In this document: positions 39,478 to 48,899 of the stretch, in pieces
Position numbering within the stretch: the first letter of the stretch is position 1
Layout of the letters: each line of letters begins with the position of its first letter
Assembly: GCA_026709505.1 (NCBI GenBank)
Contig: JAPOSW010000067.1
Coordinates: 1 to 60,229 of the forward strand
From: Gammaproteobacteria bacterium
GTDB taxonomy: Bacteria > Pseudomonadota > Gammaproteobacteria > Arenicellales > Poriferihabitantaceae
Direction of reading: 5' to 3'
Length of the DNA: 60,229 bases
Made by a program: the position numbers and the translations under genes
Notes under the pieces: generated by a model
What the model saw: the letters and a program-made list of their open reading frames with translations, nothing else
Database searches by the model: none
What the model was told of the DNA's origin: nothing

Positions 39478-40120
39478 TGAATCCAGCCCGAAATCGTCAA
39501 TTCGTTACCGGCAGACTGAGCGTTAGCTTGGCGAGTGTGGCTGTTTCCATGCCCAAGTTCCCCCCATCGGAATGACGAACCGTGTTGATATGTGCCTAGA
39601 CTGGCCTGCTCTGGCTCGGTTTCCCGGTCCCATCGACCGTCTCCAGTTCGCCGGATAGATCGTTCGCACCATTGCTTTCAGCTGATGTTTCAGGACTTTT
39701 GAAATCGTCCATGGAAGTTTCAGAAACAGACGATGCTCAAACTGTATCGCCATCGCACTCAGTCGCAGAGTGAATATGGTCAATGACCGGATGAACAACA
39801 TTTGTTATCTCCCGATCAACGGATATAACTGTGATGGGGATTAGGACCGCCGGTATCGGAGGGGAATATTATGGACAACGAAAAGTGAACTGTTTGGTTC
39901 ATGACTACCTCAAAAGCAATGCTAGTTTGAGTAAGGATCATGCAGGTGAGGGTGTTACCACGCCTCATCTCTCGCAGACGTGTAATTCAGAAAACAATAA
40001 TCCGGTATTACACATGTGTTGTCAAAATAAAACCATGCAAATTTGTCTTTGCCTTCATTTTTTGTTTCCTTTTTTGTATACGTGAGTGTTTACTTCTGTG
40101 TTGCATATAAACTACAATAT
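39478..40120. other. 643-bp stretch without a supported gene
   Basis: A 92-codon minus-strand ORF (39523-39801) and an 84-codon plus-strand ORF (39834-40085) show no known motif. The palindrome ACACATGTGT at 40010-40019 lies about 100 bp before the toxin gene and could be its operator; TATAAA at 40106-40111 is a possible -10 element. Confidence 0.45.
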
Positions 40121-40420
40121 ATGGTCGAATTGAAGCAGACAGCAACCTTTCGAAAATGGTTGAACAAGCTACGCGACAAGAAGGCGGTCGGCCTGGTCGC
40201 GTCCCGGTTGAGTCGTCTGGCATATGGCCATACAGGGGATGTCAAGTCGGTGGGAGGGGGAGTGAGCGAACTTCGCATTCACTACAGCCCAGGTTACCGG
40301 ATTTACTTCCAGAGGCGGGACAATGCAATTATCGTCCTGCCCTGTGGGGGTAACAAAGACTCTCAGGCTCATGATATCAAGACCGCAAGGAAGCTGGCCA
40401 GCAACTGTGAGGAACCATGA
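40121..40420 (+). CDS. RelE/HigB-type toxin of a type II toxin-antitoxin pair
   Basis: 99-residue 'addiction module killer' protein: VELKQTATFRKWLNKLRDKKA, RIHYSPGYRIYFQRRD and VLPCGGNKDSQAHDIKTARKLA are characteristic, including the final basic helix. Predicted ribosome-dependent mRNA nuclease or gyrase poison. ATG 40121 is chosen over the longer frame from 40043. It overlaps the antitoxin start by 4 nt (ATGA). Toxin-first order is the HigBA arrangement. Confidence 0.9.
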   Translation: MVELKQTATFRKWLNKLRDKKAVGLVASRLSRLAYGHTGDVKSVGGGVSELRIHYSPGYRIYFQRRDNAIIVLPCGGNKDSQAHDIKTARKLASNCEEP

Positions 40421-40710
40421 CTGAAAAACTGACAACATTCGACCCGGCCGAGCATCTGGACTCGAGCCTTTCCATTGCCGCCTTCATGGAAGATGCCTTC
40501 GAATCGGGCGATCCGGCCTATGTCAACCATGCCCTGGGTGTTGTCGCACGGGCCAGGGGAATGACGGAGATCGCCAGACAGACCGGCCTGTCCCGTGAAC
40601 AACTTTACCGTTCGTTCAGCAGAGAGGGCAATCCGACATTGAGATCGACGCTTGCCGTGATGAAGGCACTCGGAATCAGGATCTCTGCCAAGCCGGCAAT
40701 GGGGGAGTAA
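40417..40710 (+). CDS. HTH antitoxin of the HigBA-like pair
   Basis: 97-residue DNA-binding protein: LGVVARARGMTEIARQTGLSREQLYRSFS is a helix-turn-helix and GNPTLRSTLAVMKALGIRIS the conserved tail of 'putative addiction module antidote' proteins. Binds the toxin and represses the pair. Its ATG lies inside the toxin stop codon context (ATGA). Confidence 0.92.
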   Translation: MTEKLTTFDPAEHLDSSLSIAAFMEDAFESGDPAYVNHALGVVARARGMTEIARQTGLSREQLYRSFSREGNPTLRSTLAVMKALGIRISAKPAMGE

Positions 40711-41575: not shown

Positions 41576-43837
41576 CTATAGATTGATGCGTTTCAAGTGC
41601 TCCAGGAAATCCTGCGGATTCTTGTATCCATAGAAGTTGAAGTCGCCCAGAACCGAACCATTCTGATCCAGAAATATCATTGCCGGAGGGCCGAATACAC
41701 TGAAGCGTTTTTTGAGGGCATTTGCATTGGCGTTATTTGGATCCGTGACATCCACCTGCAATGCGATAAAGCGGCTTTCAACTTCCGTGGCAACCAGACT
41801 GTCCTGGAATGTGGATTCTTCCATCCTCAGGCAGTCAACACACCAGTCAGCGTAATAATCCACAATGATTCCTCGACCGCTTGAAGCTGCCTGCATGAGA
41901 GACTGTTCAAGGTCGCTCTCGTCTGCAATACGGTCAAACAGGTGCACACTGGACACTTCTGATGTATTGCCTGAGCCACCCGTGAAGAGGTTTTCCGGAA
42001 TTGGACGCAGCAAATCCCGTTGTCCCATGAATCCGCCGATCAGTGCACAGGTTCCCCACACCAGAAGTACCACTCCCAGGCCCTTGAGGACGATTTTGAA
42101 CTGGTGCCTGGCCGTTCCCGTTTCCGAATGCATTTGCATCAAGGCATAGCCGACAATGATCAGGTAGGCACCCCAGATTAGCAGGATCGGGATTTGCGGC
42201 AATGTCTGCAGGAGGTAGATTGCCACGGCGATCAGCAGAATGCCAAACAGGGATTTTATCGATTCCATCCAGGCACCGGCCTTGGGAAGCAGATACCCGG
42301 CCCCGAGCCCAATGGCGATGAGTGGCAAGCCCATGCCGAGAGCCAGGACGGCCATGGTTTGCGCACCGAGCATAGGATCGCCTGAAGCGACTGCTATTCC
42401 CAATACCGAGATCAATACCGGCGAGACGCAAGCACCAATGATCAGTGCAGAGACGAGTCCCAACAGGAACACCAACGGGATGGAGCCGGTCAAACTACCT
42501 GATTTTTTCTGGATTCTGGACTGCAGTCCACTCGGTACCTGTAACTCATACAGGCCAAACATGGATAGCGCCATCAATACCAGAAGGCCCGAGAGGGTTC
42601 CGATCGCCCAAATATTCTGAAAATAGGCTTGGAGCTGGCCCCCGGTTGCCCCTGCGAGTACCCCCATCCCAGTATAGGTCACCATGGTTCCCAGTACATA
42701 GGACAACGAGAGCGAACCTGCCCGTAAGCGGGTGATTTTCTCGCCTTGACCGGCAATCACGCTCGAGAGAATCGGGATCATTGGCAGCACGCAAGGCGTG
42801 AAGGTCAGCAGGATACCGGCAATGAAGGCGCCAGAGAGTATCGCAATCAAGGAATGGTCTTCTGTTGATTTTCCAGTTGAAGAGGGAGTTGCAGTATCGG
42901 CAGCCATGGCTGGTGCGATGAGGCTGAATTCACGGGTGACAGGTGGATAGCAGATCGCACCTTCCGCACAACCCTGATAGGCCAGGGTGACTAGAACCTC
43001 TCCGCCCGGACTGTCAACCGGCCGGTTTGCCGAGAAGGAGAAATCGGTTCGATAGACATCGGTGCTTCCAAACGTGGGATCCTCGTATTTTTCGGGGGTT
43101 TGAGGTATCGATACTGCAAGCGGCTTGTCGCCGAGCATCACTCCGATTTTGTCCCTGTACAAATAGTATCCCGGTTCAACCACAAAGTTGCCGGATACAG
43201 TCTGTGCATCGATGGACAGGTTTTCGATCTTGAAAGCGTCCTCAACCCTGAGAAATTCCGGTTGAGAGAACGACTTGGCAAGCAGGTCACGCAATAGGTT
43301 TACATCCCCGGTTTTCGCTTGTTGGGCCTGAGCAGGCGGGCTTGCAGCCGTGGTTCCGGGTGTCGTTTCGCCTGCGACGAGCCGGATTGCTTGACCTGTC
43401 TTGATGAAGCGGGTGTTGTTGGTGATCGGTGCATAACAGACGCCAACTGGCTCATTGCAGCCTTGGCCCTCTGCGATCAGGGTGAATTCACCATCGTTGC
43501 CCGTAACGTCAATAAGCACCGAGAACTCATCTTCATAAACTTCCGTTACCCCGAACAGCGGATCATCCTTGCTGGTGCCCTGCGGATATTGCTGGATCAC
43601 GAGGGAATAGCCGGCATCATCGACTGCAAACTTGAACTTGTCCCGGTACATGTAGTAATTCCCGGCGATCGTCCATGTCGCCTGAATTGCGGATGGATCA
43701 ACTGGCATAAGCTCGAATTGAAAGGCCTCGTCTTCAGGCAGCAATTCGGAGTCATCAAGTCCCTGTGCTGAAATCACCCCGGACAGCAAGTGCAGAAGCA
43801 GCAGTGCCAGATAGAGATGTCGGAGTTTTTCGAGCAT
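41576..43837 (-). CDS. dsbD: protein-disulfide reductase DsbD with duplicated alpha domain
   Basis: Moves electrons from thioredoxin across the inner membrane to periplasmic disulfide isomerases and cytochrome c maturation proteins. Start at ATG 43837 (MLEKLRHLYLALLLLHLL, a signal peptide); the frame continues upstream inside the next gene. Two periplasmic DsbD-alpha domains follow in tandem: the first with Cys127 and Cys134 (GCNEPVGVC), the second with Cys290 and Cys296 (GCAEGAIC). The beta domain has eight helices with FTPCVLPMIPI and IGACVSPVLI; the gamma thioredoxin domain has WCVDC (Cys666, Cys669). At 753 aa it is almost 200 longer than E. coli DsbD because of the extra alpha domain. 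It follows a hypothetical gene by 4 nt. Confidence 0.95.
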   Translation of the reverse strand: MLEKLRHLYLALLLLHLLSGVISAQGLDDSELLPEDEAFQFELMPVDPSAIQATWTIAGNYYMYRDKFKFAVDDAGYSLVIQQYPQGTSKDDPLFGVTEVYEDEFSVLIDVTGNDGEFTLIAEGQGCNEPVGVCYAPITNNTRFIKTGQAIRLVAGETTPGTTAASPPAQAQQAKTGDVNLLRDLLAKSFSQPEFLRVEDAFKIENLSIDAQTVSGNFVVEPGYYLYRDKIGVMLGDKPLAVSIPQTPEKYEDPTFGSTDVYRTDFSFSANRPVDSPGGEVLVTLAYQGCAEGAICYPPVTREFSLIAPAMAADTATPSSTGKSTEDHSLIAILSGAFIAGILLTFTPCVLPMIPILSSVIAGQGEKITRLRAGSLSLSYVLGTMVTYTGMGVLAGATGGQLQAYFQNIWAIGTLSGLLVLMALSMFGLYELQVPSGLQSRIQKKSGSLTGSIPLVFLLGLVSALIIGACVSPVLISVLGIAVASGDPMLGAQTMAVLALGMGLPLIAIGLGAGYLLPKAGAWMESIKSLFGILLIAVAIYLLQTLPQIPILLIWGAYLIIVGYALMQMHSETGTARHQFKIVLKGLGVVLLVWGTCALIGGFMGQRDLLRPIPENLFTGGSGNTSEVSSVHLFDRIADESDLEQSLMQAASSGRGIIVDYYADWCVDCLRMEESTFQDSLVATEVESRFIALQVDVTDPNNANANALKKRFSVFGPPAMIFLDQNGSVLGDFNFYGYKNPQDFLEHLKRINL

Positions 43838-43841
43838 GCGT

Positions 43842-44414
43842 TTAGTATCCGGAGTTCCTAACCAGCTTGCTGCAGGACTTGTAGAACAGGTCAAAAATTT
43901 CCGGACCATCGATTTCCATGATCTGGTCAATGACCCATTTATTGGTTTGGTCTTCGCCGAGAATATCGCGGATACGGGACCCGAGCAGACGATACATTTC
44001 ATAGCCAGGCTGCTGGTCGACATACTTGAAGCCGGCCAGAGAATTTGTGGCATGGTTCAGGGCATTTACGGTCTCTTCCATGTCGGGTTGCCTGTCGAGC
44101 AGCTCTACTGTGTTTTCTGCATAGTGTCTCAGGCAGTTCAGGGAGAGCGAGTTGATGAACTCATTTCGGTCGTCTTCAGGGAATTTCTCGTGGACAAGCC
44201 GGTCCGACAGGTGAATCTGGAAGAATAAGTATTCCCGGATGACAGCCAGGCGCTGTTCATCGTTGACATAGACGAAATCCTGCTGATGGAGGTTTTTGGC
44301 GGCGGACAGCGCAATGCGCCAGCAGATGGCTGAGAATGCATTCGCTAGTTCACTTATTGAAACTGTCCGGTCGTGCGTTTTCCAGGCAGTGCGAATTCGC
44401 GCTTTTTGTAGCAT
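43842..44414 (-). CDS. conserved hypothetical protein upstream of dsbD
   Basis: 190-residue soluble, mostly helical protein with no signal peptide. Segments such as RLAVIREYLFFQIHLSDRLVH and NEFINSLSLNCLRHYAENTVELL are amphipathic. No catalytic motif is visible. The stop lies 4 nt before the dsbD ATG on the same strand, so the two are co-expressed. I recall similar proteins beside redox genes but no assigned role. Confidence 0.65.
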   Translation of the reverse strand: MLQKARIRTAWKTHDRTVSISELANAFSAICWRIALSAAKNLHQQDFVYVNDEQRLAVIREYLFFQIHLSDRLVHEKFPEDDRNEFINSLSLNCLRHYAENTVELLDRQPDMEETVNALNHATNSLAGFKYVDQQPGYEMYRLLGSRIRDILGEDQTNKWVIDQIMEIDGPEIFDLFYKSCSKLVRNSGY

Positions 44415-44557: not shown

Positions 44558-45265
44558 CTAATCAATGTACCTATTTGAAGAAGCGCTTGCGGTGTTGACC
44601 GCATTCAGACTTTTATGAGGAAGGAAAATCCCACAGCCAAGCAGGCCATTTGTACCGAGACCATTTTCCTGAATGCGGAGCGATTCATCGGGCTCAAGAT
44701 CGGCAAGCAGCACACTTCTGGCCAGGATATTTTGATCCCTGAGTGAAATTTCATGGGCAAGACCGCATAGTAATTTTTTCGGTACTACCCCAATTCTGGA
44801 AAGCAGGCGGATCACGTTTTCCTCGAAGGCCAGTTCATCTTCTACCTGATGGGCATCCATTGAACGCGTGAATACGGTGCTTGAAGGAAACAGGCTATGT
44901 TGCACAATTTCTCTGACAAGGATTGAACAGCCTGCAACCATGAGTTCTTTTCCCACTAAAGCCCGGGCATCATCAACACGGTGGATGGGTAATCTGATAT
45001 ATAGTCGGGTACGATGAGAGAGCTGTATCATGTCACCCGAATCAAGAGAGGGGCGAATCCATCCGTTCGCTGAAGAGGCCGAATGAATTGAGTGGATAGC
45101 AGCCTGCGGCTCATCGATTATCCAAGGCAGAAAATTCAGAATCTGCTCGCGAAGCTCCCAAGCATGGTCAATGGGTATTTCGCGACAAGCGATCCGAAAA
45201 GCACAATCCTGTACCTGCTCACGAGTCCGGAGGGATTGATCCTGTGTATCTTCTTGCCAAAGCAT
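44558..45265 (-). CDS. cas6: orphan Cas6-like (Cmx6-type) RAMP protein
   Basis: 235 residues resembling the type I-MYXAN Cas6/Cmx6 family, which in CRISPR systems cuts the precursor crRNA. DCAFRIACREIPIDHAWELREQI is a typical first strand-helix, SHRTRLYIRLPIHRVDDARAL and LVGKELMVAGCSILV are the middle, and GLGTNGLLGCGIFLPHK is the C-terminal glycine-rich loop of Cas6 RAMP proteins. No repeat array, no other cas gene and no Cas1/2 is in the window. Flanks are a thiol-redox operon and a lone ATPase. Either a stray relic or a processing enzyme for another RNA. Family call is from memory of motifs, so moderate. Confidence 0.6.
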   Translation of the reverse strand: MLWQEDTQDQSLRTREQVQDCAFRIACREIPIDHAWELREQILNFLPWIIDEPQAAIHSIHSASSANGWIRPSLDSGDMIQLSHRTRLYIRLPIHRVDDARALVGKELMVAGCSILVREIVQHSLFPSSTVFTRSMDAHQVEDELAFEENVIRLLSRIGVVPKKLLCGLAHEISLRDQNILARSVLLADLEPDESLRIQENGLGTNGLLGCGIFLPHKSLNAVNTASASSNRYID

Positions 45266-45457: not shown

Positions 45458-46714
45458 TTAATTCATCGTGCTGTTCTGATACCTTTCCAAAATGACCGCC
45501 ATTTCCGCCTTCGGTCGCCTTTGCCTTCTGATAAATTCCATCAGGCTCGGAATCCCCGGTTCATAACAGAGTAATGGAACTTCTTCTTCTGTTTTGTCGG
45601 TAACAGAAATTTTCCAGATATAGCCGATATGCAGCAATTTCTGCATGGTCACCTGAATCGTGTCATGGGTAGCTGATTCCTCCTGTTTCTGCAAAAATAC
45701 CCTGACTTTATCCGCTAATTCATGGACCTGAATGGGCTGATTGTCGTTTTCTGCAAAAGCATCACCGATATCCGCAGCCAATGGCACTAGCCCCATCTTA
45801 TCCAATTCATTGTGGCGAAGAATGTATATGTTCGAACAATCAGCAATCACTTCATCTTTAACCGTCGAGAGGGTTTCCATGGTTACTCTCCGTGAACCCG
45901 TCATCGCCAGTTGACCGGCAATGCAATTCCCCCATATCTGGATAAAGTAAGGGTAGCAGTGAGCACGGTCAATGACTTCCACAAGGGCTTCTTCAACGCA
46001 AGCCACCTGACAAGATTCCAGAGGTTTGGACAGTGCTTTGTGGGCATCATCCACCGAAAGGCGGCCCAGAGGAAATATTTTGCTTTTATCCCAAAAGGAA
46101 GCACTAGCTTGACTCAATGCAGTTTCAAGATTTGGAGTGCCTGCTAGCACGAGAAAAAATGGGAAATTCTCTGCTCGGACATTTTGGCTCGCATTCAGAA
46201 GAACGTATCCGATATCAGGAGGTAGCATGTGTGCCTCATCGATGATCAAGATAAAGGGTTTTTTTTGGGATTTTTCCGATAATAAATTTTGGAGTGCAAG
46301 CATCTCTGTAGTGTGGCTCAAGCTCGTACTTACAGAAGCCATGCCGATATTGGCTGATGCAGTAACATCATCAAATAGCTTCAGGGCTTTCCTGAAAAGG
46401 CCTTGATCATTGCCCACGATCAGTCCAGCCAGTTGCGCTAGATCCTTGAATTGTGAGGGCGTGACCCACAAAATATCCAGTTTGTCTCCAACCGCTTTCA
46501 GAGTTGCTTCCTGCAAATACCGTAACAATGCGGTTTTACCATTGCCGCGCGGGCCATAGATAATCATATTCTGATCCGAAGGGTATTTTCGTATCAAGAG
46601 GTCGACACTGTCCTGAAAATATTTCTCTTCTTGCTCCCGCCCAGCGAGATATGGCGGGATTCTTCCATCACCCGCATGAAATAGAAATTTCAGTTTTGCG
46701 TCAGATTCGAGCAT
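45458..46714 (-). CDS. AAA ATPase (ORC/Cdc6-like, lone)
   Basis: 418 residues. PPYLAGREQEEKYFQDSVDLL is the entry box, Walker A is GPRGNGKT (54-61), Walker B is FILIIDEAHMLP, and FFLVLAGTPNLETAL is the sensor-1 strand. A winged-helix-like region follows (VTMQKLLHIGYIWKI). The outline matches the frameshifted ATPase at 23819-25091, but sequence differs. No partner gene on the same strand within 500 bp. Such ATPases are common in defence islands and on plasmids; function not known. Confidence 0.82.
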   Translation of the reverse strand: MLESDAKLKFLFHAGDGRIPPYLAGREQEEKYFQDSVDLLIRKYPSDQNMIIYGPRGNGKTALLRYLQEATLKAVGDKLDILWVTPSQFKDLAQLAGLIVGNDQGLFRKALKLFDDVTASANIGMASVSTSLSHTTEMLALQNLLSEKSQKKPFILIIDEAHMLPPDIGYVLLNASQNVRAENFPFFLVLAGTPNLETALSQASASFWDKSKIFPLGRLSVDDAHKALSKPLESCQVACVEEALVEVIDRAHCYPYFIQIWGNCIAGQLAMTGSRRVTMETLSTVKDEVIADCSNIYILRHNELDKMGLVPLAADIGDAFAENDNQPIQVHELADKVRVFLQKQEESATHDTIQVTMQKLLHIGYIWKISVTDKTEEEVPLLCYEPGIPSLMEFIRRQRRPKAEMAVILERYQNSTMN

Positions 46715-47267: not shown

Positions 47268-48167
47268 TTAGAACATGCCGATTCGCTCGTTAAAGCGAAT
47301 GCGATAAAGGAGTCGTTTCACTTTTTTTGATTCCGAATCGGTATAGGCATGTCTGCAATGCACAATGTTATTACACAAAATACCTTCGCCTTTAGCCAGG
47401 AGTATTGTCATCTTCCCGAGAAGAGGACCCGATAGTAACGCGTTAAGAGTCTCAATTGCTTGGGAAACTTTTGGGTCTTGCTTCCAAATAATATGATGTT
47501 TACGCTGGGTAAAGCGCATATAGAGGTGGTCATTTTCATCCAATGAATAAACGGGTCCTTCAAAGGCATCACGAAGAGTTTGTCCTTGGTCAATATTCTC
47601 TGGGATTTTTAACGTATCAGGCAGGCTTAAACACGCGATGAGATCGGGTGCTTGTTCCTGCATTTGAATATACAGCATCTCATGATCGATCAAACTGTTT
47701 TCACCTCCAGATTCTGCCGGATTCACGCAATGCATAACAAAACTTCGAACCTTACGGTTCTCGGGGTAGTAATATCCATCGGTATGCCAGTTCAAGGGTT
47801 TTGTTGTATAAGGAATATAGCGGCTGAAATTTTCCGGATCTTGTGTTCGGTCAGTAATGCAGGAGATATGATTCTTTCCAGATTCAGGATTCCCGATTGT
47901 CGACACCAAGCCTAACTGTCGGCACAGGGCCATGATTGCTTGCGGTGATTCGGAATATTCCGGGTTCAGTCGATACAACACGAAGTTTCGCCTCTGAACC
48001 TGCTCGACCAAGTGGTTATATTCATCTTCCCTGATCCTGAATGGATCGGCTATGTTTACTGGTGTATTCGTGTATTCGGCCCCATATCCATTCAGCTTTT
48101 GTTTTTTCCAGGACAGAAATTGCCGGTTGTTTGAGAATGCCCCCGAAGCGGCTGGTGAAGAATCCAT
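47268..48167 (-). CDS. TauD/TfdA-family Fe(II)/2-oxoglutarate dioxygenase
   Basis: Non-haem iron oxygenase. LNWHTDGYYYPENRKVRSFVMH holds the HxD metal ligands, and NNIVHCRHAYTD plus RLLYRIRFN carry the distal histidine and the 2-oxoglutarate arginine. Length (299 aa from ATG 48167) is normal; a TTG at 48194 would abut the rhodanese stop. Resembles clavaminate-synthase-like hydroxylases. Likely co-transcribed with the upstream rhodanese gene, 27 nt away. Substrate unknown. Confidence 0.85.
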   Translation of the reverse strand: MDSSPAASGAFSNNRQFLSWKKQKLNGYGAEYTNTPVNIADPFRIREDEYNHLVEQVQRRNFVLYRLNPEYSESPQAIMALCRQLGLVSTIGNPESGKNHISCITDRTQDPENFSRYIPYTTKPLNWHTDGYYYPENRKVRSFVMHCVNPAESGGENSLIDHEMLYIQMQEQAPDLIACLSLPDTLKIPENIDQGQTLRDAFEGPVYSLDENDHLYMRFTQRKHHIIWKQDPKVSQAIETLNALLSGPLLGKMTILLAKGEGILCNNIVHCRHAYTDSESKKVKRLLYRIRFNERIGMF

Positions 48168-48194
48168 CGGCGTGTCCCCGTGTGCCGGGCGCAA

Positions 48195-48899
48195 TTAAGG
48201 CTTGTAACTTCTCAACTCGCGTCGTTCGATCATGCGCCCCCACCATAAATTGTAAGGGTGGACCAGGTCGGTGGACGAGCTGCCATTGACCAGCTCTCTT
48301 TTCTGATTGTGCCAGCCAAACAAGCCATAACGAAGATTCAGGACATCATCAGGAGAATGTGACGAAGACTGATTGAGGACAATTTCTGCCATGTTTGAAG
48401 ATCGATATCCCACAGAGCAGTAAAAGACCACTTTGCGGCTGCGGATGCTGTCGCCATATCGGCTCAGAAATTCCTGTCCCGACATTTTCGGGTCAATCCG
48501 GACTGCCCCTTCAATGCGGCTGACCTTGAACTCGGATTCTTCGCGCACATCAAACAGCGAGACTTGCTCCCTTGAATTGTTGAGCATGCCCTCAAGTTGA
48601 TCGGCACTGATATGGACTACATCGGGATACTGTTGGCGAATTTTTTCCTGCTCCCTGACCAGATCGGCCTTGACCGGCAGGTGAAGCAAGCCAAATACGA
48701 TCACGCAGAACACCAGCGTGAATTTCCATTTGCAGGATCGGGGTTCAGCAATGCTGCTGACAGGACTTTGGATTCTATTCATTGTGATTGAGGAATTATC
48801 GGCAACGTGCACGCTCATTGCCGCAATTGCACACATGATCGTCTCAGCCGCCAGTTTGGTTTGCAGCTTGCTCGCCTGACTCGCACCATTAAATCTCAA
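48195..48899 (-). CDS. membrane-anchored rhodanese-domain protein
   Basis: About 75 N-terminal residues include a hydrophobic anchor (FTLVFCVIVFGLLHLPVKA); the rest is a single rhodanese domain: SLFDVREESEFKVSRIEGAVRI and VVFYCSVGYRSS, with the active-site cysteine. The mature domain would face the periplasm. Usual role is persulfide or thiosulfate sulfur transfer. The long N-terminus may start too early; an ATG at 48782 (MNRIQSP) is a plausible alternative. Followed by the TauD-type gene. Confidence 0.8.
   Translation of the reverse strand: MRFNGASQASKLQTKLAAETIMCAIAAMSVHVADNSSITMNRIQSPVSSIAEPRSCKWKFTLVFCVIVFGLLHLPVKADLVREQEKIRQQYPDVVHISADQLEGMLNNSREQVSLFDVREESEFKVSRIEGAVRIDPKMSGQEFLSRYGDSIRSRKVVFYCSVGYRSSNMAEIVLNQSSSHSPDDVLNLRYGLFGWHNQKRELVNGSSSTDLVHPYNLWWGRMIERRELRSYKP

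Follow-up and report, generated by a model that had tools for sequence, protein, structure and literature searches.

Cas6 is the RNA-processing enzyme of CRISPR systems. In type I-MYXAN systems (Gloeothece, Nostoc and Synechocystis plasmids) the gene for this enzyme, Cas6/Cmx6, adjoins cas3 and cas8/cmx, and in the type I-B CAST system the protein belongs to a Cascade-transposon complex of solved structure (Protein Data Bank codes 8fcj and 8fcu). The maturation of crRNA in type II systems proceeds without Cas6. The reverse dissimilatory sulfite reductase (rDsr) cluster of sulfur oxidisers, dsrABEFHCMKLJOPN, is a further system of importance here, and to our knowledge its named genes do not include Cas6. 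An association of Cas6 with dsr is not described in the literature that we searched, mostly open-access papers; one figure legend lists cas6 among the drawn genes of a dsr cluster, and in the section consulted it is not discussed (PMC10989796).

The window studied here is a whole contig of 60 kb (C13) from the genome of a gammaproteobacterium. It carries a gene for a member of this known protein family, a Cas6 that has the family fold and motif and lacks the CRISPR system on which the usual role of the family depends. In Gammaproteobacteria the tie between such Cas6 genes and those of dissimilatory sulfite reductase is near-perfect, and our results suggest that an immune RNA-cutting enzyme has been repurposed for energy metabolism.

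The Window Gene Encodes a Cas6

The gene is a single open frame for 235 residues on the minus strand, and the plus strand of the same interval is broken by stops. A sequence-only reading of this DNA had placed a Cas6-like gene at exactly these coordinates, and the profile search that it called for bears this out. The protein matches the Pfam Cas6 profile PF09559 with an E-value of 3.8e-49 and 167.7 bits, where the curated cut-off is 26.7 bits. The NCBIfam model TIGR02807 (Cas6/Cmx6) gives 103.7 bits, above its cut-off of 98.85, and the Cas6 models of PADLOC match as well. No other PF09559 gene occurs in the host genome. The glycine-rich C-terminal loop described in the same reading is present, and its glycines Gly-210 and Gly-212 are invariant in an alignment of 58 sequences. 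The features of the locus are listed in Table 1.

Table 1. Features of the Cas6 locus (positions in the window)
Feature	Coordinates	Strand	Basis or remark
Orphan Cas6 (PF09559/TIGR02807), 235 aa	44558..45265	minus	gene under study
Glycine-rich C-terminal loop GLGTNGLLGCG, residues 202-212	44630..44662	minus	sequence and alignment
Codon of His34, putative catalytic histidine ([DE]H motif)	45164..45166	minus	conservation
p190, all-helical conserved protein, next gene after Cas6	43842..44414	minus	family profile E=1.8e-82
DsbD thiol:disulfide interchange protein, after p190 in the window's genus	41576..43843	minus	start estimated from relatives of 752-758 aa; longest open frame reaches 44053
AAA/ORC-like ATPase between TauD and Cas6	45458..46714	minus	PF13401 E=2e-9
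TauD-type dioxygenase	47268..48194	minus	PF02668; family profile E=1.3e-112
Rhodanese-domain protein, immediately upstream of TauD	48195..48899	minus	PF00581

A model of the protein was predicted with AlphaFold from an input of 58 homologues and has a mean pLDDT of 87.8. The model shows the tandem ferredoxin-like (RAMP) fold of Cas6. Its best match in the Protein Data Bank is the type I-B CAST Cas6 (8fcj_B), with a Z-score of 24.1 and an r.m.s.d. of 2.5 over 199 residues, of which 22% are identical. The next-best matches are other Cas6 structures with Z-scores of 14-17, including Pyrococcus furiosus Cas6 at about 15-16. By its sequence profiles and its predicted fold, the gene is a genuine Cas6.

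Among 128 distinct relatives, 99% have His-34, and the CRISPR-linked Cmx6 proteins share this histidine. It is a putative catalytic residue, judging by this conservation and by its position at the start of helix 1, which we take to be the site of the histidine in other Cas6 enzymes. In the CAST Cas6 an asparagine replaces the histidine at this position. The ratio dN/dS is 0.11-0.21 for close, non-saturated pairs within the window's genus, and such values show purifying selection.

CRISPR Loci of the Host Genome

The sequence-only reading had described the gene as an orphan, and the whole contig agrees with this. An array scan of the window and of the surroundings of Cas1 hits found no CRISPR array on the 60-kb contig, and none of the neighbouring proteins was a Cas protein when searched with Pfam and PADLOC. 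The genes that would mark a type I-MYXAN locus (cas3, cas8/cmx, cas7 and cas5 beside cas6) are thus absent at the window locus, as is the array, and these genes are likewise absent from the dsr-linked neighbourhoods of relatives.

It had also been proposed that the protein might serve a distant array. Arrays do occur elsewhere in the genome, where they were sought around Cas1 hits, and three Cas1-bearing loci with arrays were found on the contigs C102 (L069), C43 (L070) and C3 (L071). The first is of type I-D, with Csc2, Cas10d and Cas5d, and has a Cas6d of its own (PADLOC E=1e-36; Pfam Cas_Cas6_C E=2e-7). The locus on C3 is of type I-F and has its own Csy4, and that on C43 is an array locus with a type II Cas1. 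With a Cas6 encoded at both the I-D and the I-F locus and none used by type II, each array seen has its own processing route, and service to a distant array is disfavored.

Comparison with 60 relatives points the same way. Exactly one PF09559 gene is present in 33 of the 60, and Cas1 occurs in 9 of these 33 and in 6 of the 27 without Cas6 (p=0.77). There are also ten Cas6-positive genomes, each assembled as a single contig, that lack Cas1. This shows that the gene is independent of Cas1.

Co-occurrence of Cas6 and dsrB

A sample of 370 gammaproteobacterial genomes, evenly drawn and at least 90% complete, contains PF09559 in 128 genomes and dsrB, the dissimilatory sulfite reductase gene, in 125. 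Both genes are present in 121 genomes, Cas6 alone in 7, dsrB alone in 4 and neither in 238, which gives a Fisher p-value of 5e-83 that ignores the kinship of the genomes and so overstates their independence. Cas6 is thus found in 121 of the 125 dsrB genomes, and its carriers belong to 58 families of the sample. In 85 of the 121 genomes with both genes, Cas6 lies within 10 kb of dsrB.

The exceptions are largely explained away. In all four dsrB-only assemblies (G153, G165, G243 and G297) the contig breaks off close to dsrA or dsrB, at the expected start of the Cas6 operon; the contig of G165 terminates inside the gene for the 235-aa partner protein described below. Among the genomes with Cas6 alone, G411 has a true type I-MYXAN-like CRISPR locus, whose frames read as a WYL regulator, Cas6, Cas3, Cas8, Cas7 and Cas5. 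Another, G118, carries DsrK at 73% identity; DsrK was chosen for seeking dsr remnants because a Fer4_11 search was too unspecific. In several of the remaining five (G139, G169, G320, G336 and G391) the contig ends beside the operon.

In most of the genomes that have both genes, Cas6 sits within or next to the dsr operon. The host genome differs, with its dsr operon on contig C67 (L072) and Cas6 on C13. Three single-contig genomes of 1.2-1.5 Mb have Cas6 about 41, 256 and 519 kb from dsrB, and Cas6 is retained even in genomes where dsr is unlinked, the host genome included. Genomes of only 1.0-1.1 Mb (L213-L215) retain the order TauD / 67 aa / Cas6 / DsrC-like / 67 aa beside dsr. The sequence-only reading had asked whether homologues also lack arrays and keep the same neighbors. 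The neighbors of homologues are mostly dsr genes rather than CRISPR genes and the presence of Cas6 is not associated with that of Cas1, and in the window's own genus Cas6 lies apart from dsr.

An Accessory Operon Divergent from dsrA

The neighborhoods of relatives contain dsrA, dsrB, dsrEFH, dsrC, dsrM and dsrK and no CRISPR genes. The usual order of the Cas6 operon is TauD / 67 aa / 235 aa / Cas6 / DsrC-like / 67 aa, divergent from dsrABEFHCMK. Among 112 mapped neighborhoods, in which some genomes are counted twice (about 110 loci), 90 contain the TauD-like gene and 76 the DsrC-like gene, and dsrAB lies on the opposite strand in 79. A median of 3 nucleotides separates the 235-aa partner gene from Cas6, which makes translational coupling of the two probable. 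In most loci the C-terminal cysteines of true DsrC are missing from the DsrC-like partner, which has KGGY as its last residues; in 63 of the 76 there is no cysteine within the last 15 residues.

In the window's genus, Cas6 is found in a run of rhodanese / TauD / (ATPase) / Cas6 / p190 / DsbD, and several of the operon partners, the DsrC-like gene included, do not adjoin it. The TauD-type gene of the window is orthologous to the first gene of the Cas6 operon that lies next to dsrA in relatives. For p190 there is no Pfam match, and its predicted model (pLDDT 92) has no confident match in the Protein Data Bank. The AAA/ORC-like ATPase has a weak match to PADLOC mad8 (E=1e-5). It is missing from the corresponding place in loci of the same genus and is probably an insertion outside the module. 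Further along the contig, at 40043-40710 on the plus strand, a Gp49/HigB-like toxin gene (a sub-threshold Pfam match) is followed by an HI1420-type antidote gene.

Search for an RNA Substrate

The dsrC-dsrM gaps show strong structure, with a mean z of -3.3 and 69% of them below -2. Compact hairpins occur in the dsrC-dsrM and dsrA-dsrB gaps of relatives (for example L145, L179, L117 and L119); that of the dsrA-dsrB gap is present in a subset, about 20 nucleotides past the dsrA stop, and some of those between dsrC and dsrM look like terminators. As candidate Cas6 sites these hairpins were rejected, being strong in many genomes and absent in some that keep Cas6. The gap between Cas6 and the DsrC-like gene has no structure (mean z -0.24). 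Around the window Cas6, no conserved structured RNA was found in its genus, and Rfam gave one sub-threshold match only. The suggestion that a stand-alone Cas6 may process another RNA is compatible with the data and is the reading that we prefer; no substrate was found among the dsr hairpins or around the gene.

Distribution Outside the Class and Lineage History

Across 299 genomes sampled from the whole phylum, Cas6 accompanies dsrB in all four gammaproteobacterial genomes that have dsrB and in none of the 32 from other classes. Five loci of other classes that contain a complete dsrEFH-type operon were inspected (L224-L228). Four have a divergent TauD / 67 aa pair, which in three of the five loci is followed by a siroheme synthase-like gene, not Cas6; a search for a divergent Cas6 in this equivalent, alphaproteobacterial-type operon found none in the five. 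Other dsrB loci from outside the class resemble reductive Dsr and have no dsrEFH in the stretch read. Absence from the dsrB genomes of other classes indicates that rDsr chemistry in itself does not depend on Cas6. By these gene orders, the accessory operon is the older element, and Cas6 was added to it in Gammaproteobacteria.

In a tree built from 42 dsr-associated and 9 CRISPR-linked sequences, the latter a small and mostly cyanobacterial set, the dsr lineage separates from the CRISPR-linked Cmx6 with support of 99/90. Both sets have an early [DE]H motif and a glycine-rich C terminus. The dsr lineage has conserved residues of its own, Trp-3, Trp-48, His-58/His-61 and the motif N67-G68-W69-x-R71-P72, and of these the two tryptophans and the NGWxRP motif are missing from the CRISPR-linked relatives. 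Such lineage-specific residues point to a new partner or substrate.

One genome scan gave at least 528 stretches that match the lineage, and Lamprocystis purpurea DSM 4197 (L161) is one of the carriers of the gene. Viruses and plasmids were also considered as carriers; no relative was found in viral contigs, and no plasmid matched the window protein. A Gloeobacter plasmid (L190:3971-4762) has a Cas6/Cmx6 gene near a PAPS-reductase family gene and a cupin, with no other cas gene annotated nearby.

Discussion

The window Cas6 lineage almost certainly belongs to the rDsr module. Our favored explanation, held with some confidence, is that the lineage parted from CRISPR and now serves, in Gammaproteobacteria, as an accessory to the rDsr module of sulfur oxidation, most likely controlling its genes through RNA. 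The protein would still bind, and probably cut, an RNA, and would most likely exert post-transcriptional control of sulfur-oxidation genes by cutting or binding a structured transcript of the host. It may work with the other products of the operon, the TauD-type dioxygenase, the small proteins and the DsrC paralogue. That the protein acts on RNA is probable, and that it does so by cleavage is somewhat favored. A more specific form of the proposal, a single exaptation of a CRISPR RNA endonuclease within Gammaproteobacteria that produced a sequence- or structure-specific endoribonuclease for the control of rDsr transcripts, since inherited as a fixed component of the energy metabolism, is tentative, with a chance a little short of even. 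Transcripts of dsr genes are reported to change unequally, with dsrC changing least (PMC11267869). The most likely role is that of an endoribonuclease or an RNA-binding regulator.

Since no dsr-operon hairpin is universal and no conserved RNA was found around the gene in its genus, a non-catalytic regulator is a serious rival. Here Cas6 would still be part of the rDsr module and would bind RNA or protein, as a regulator or a scaffold, perhaps together with the DsrC paralogue or the 235-aa protein. The residues peculiar to the lineage (Trp-3, Trp-48 and NGWxRP) would suit such a role, no cleavage-site hairpin common to all genomes came to light, and the asparagine of CAST Cas6 shows that the histidine position can change within the family. 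However, the near-universal His-34 would be difficult to account for if the residue had no role, and we consider a non-cutting protein rather unlikely. The presence of three CRISPR loci on other contigs and a score above the TIGR02807 cut-off might also suggest an ordinary Cas6 that processes, in trans, the crRNAs of arrays elsewhere in the genome. With processing routes at hand for all three loci, no association with Cas1 among the 60 relatives, ten single-contig carriers without Cas1 and a nearly complete overlap with dsrB, this is very improbable.

Least probable of all is a non-functional or neutral CRISPR remnant that is carried along by linkage to dsr. Most copies are indeed physically linked to dsr, and dsr genes outside the class occur without Cas6. 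A hitchhiker, however, would hardly be kept in genomes of 1.0-1.1 Mb or after separation from dsr, nor would it be expected across 58 families with the low dN/dS of close pairs.

On the preferred reading of an RNA-acting accessory of rDsr, the lineage as a whole seems to have a part in the core energy metabolism of sulfur oxidisers, those with genomes of 1.0-1.1 Mb included, and it is a candidate for the control of dsr genes. There is a consequence for annotation too. The TIGR02807 model would label genes of the dsr lineage as CRISPR Cas6/Cmx6, and automatic labels of this kind in these sulfur-oxidiser genomes should not be taken to indicate CRISPR.

The dsr lineage shares its family, fold, DH motif and glycine-rich C terminus with the type I-MYXAN Cas6/Cmx6. 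In contrast to the latter, with its adjoining cas3 and cas8/cmx, it adjoins dsr or dsr-operon genes, has invariant tryptophan and NGWxRP residues of its own and forms a separate branch. The closest solved structure to the window Cas6 is that of the type I-B CAST Cas6, a component of a different assembly that has asparagine where the window protein has His-34. With respect to the rDsr cluster, most relatives have the Cas6 operon and dsrA in divergent orientation, whereas the host carries dsr on another contig, and Cas6 sets the gammaproteobacterial clusters apart from those of the other classes sampled.
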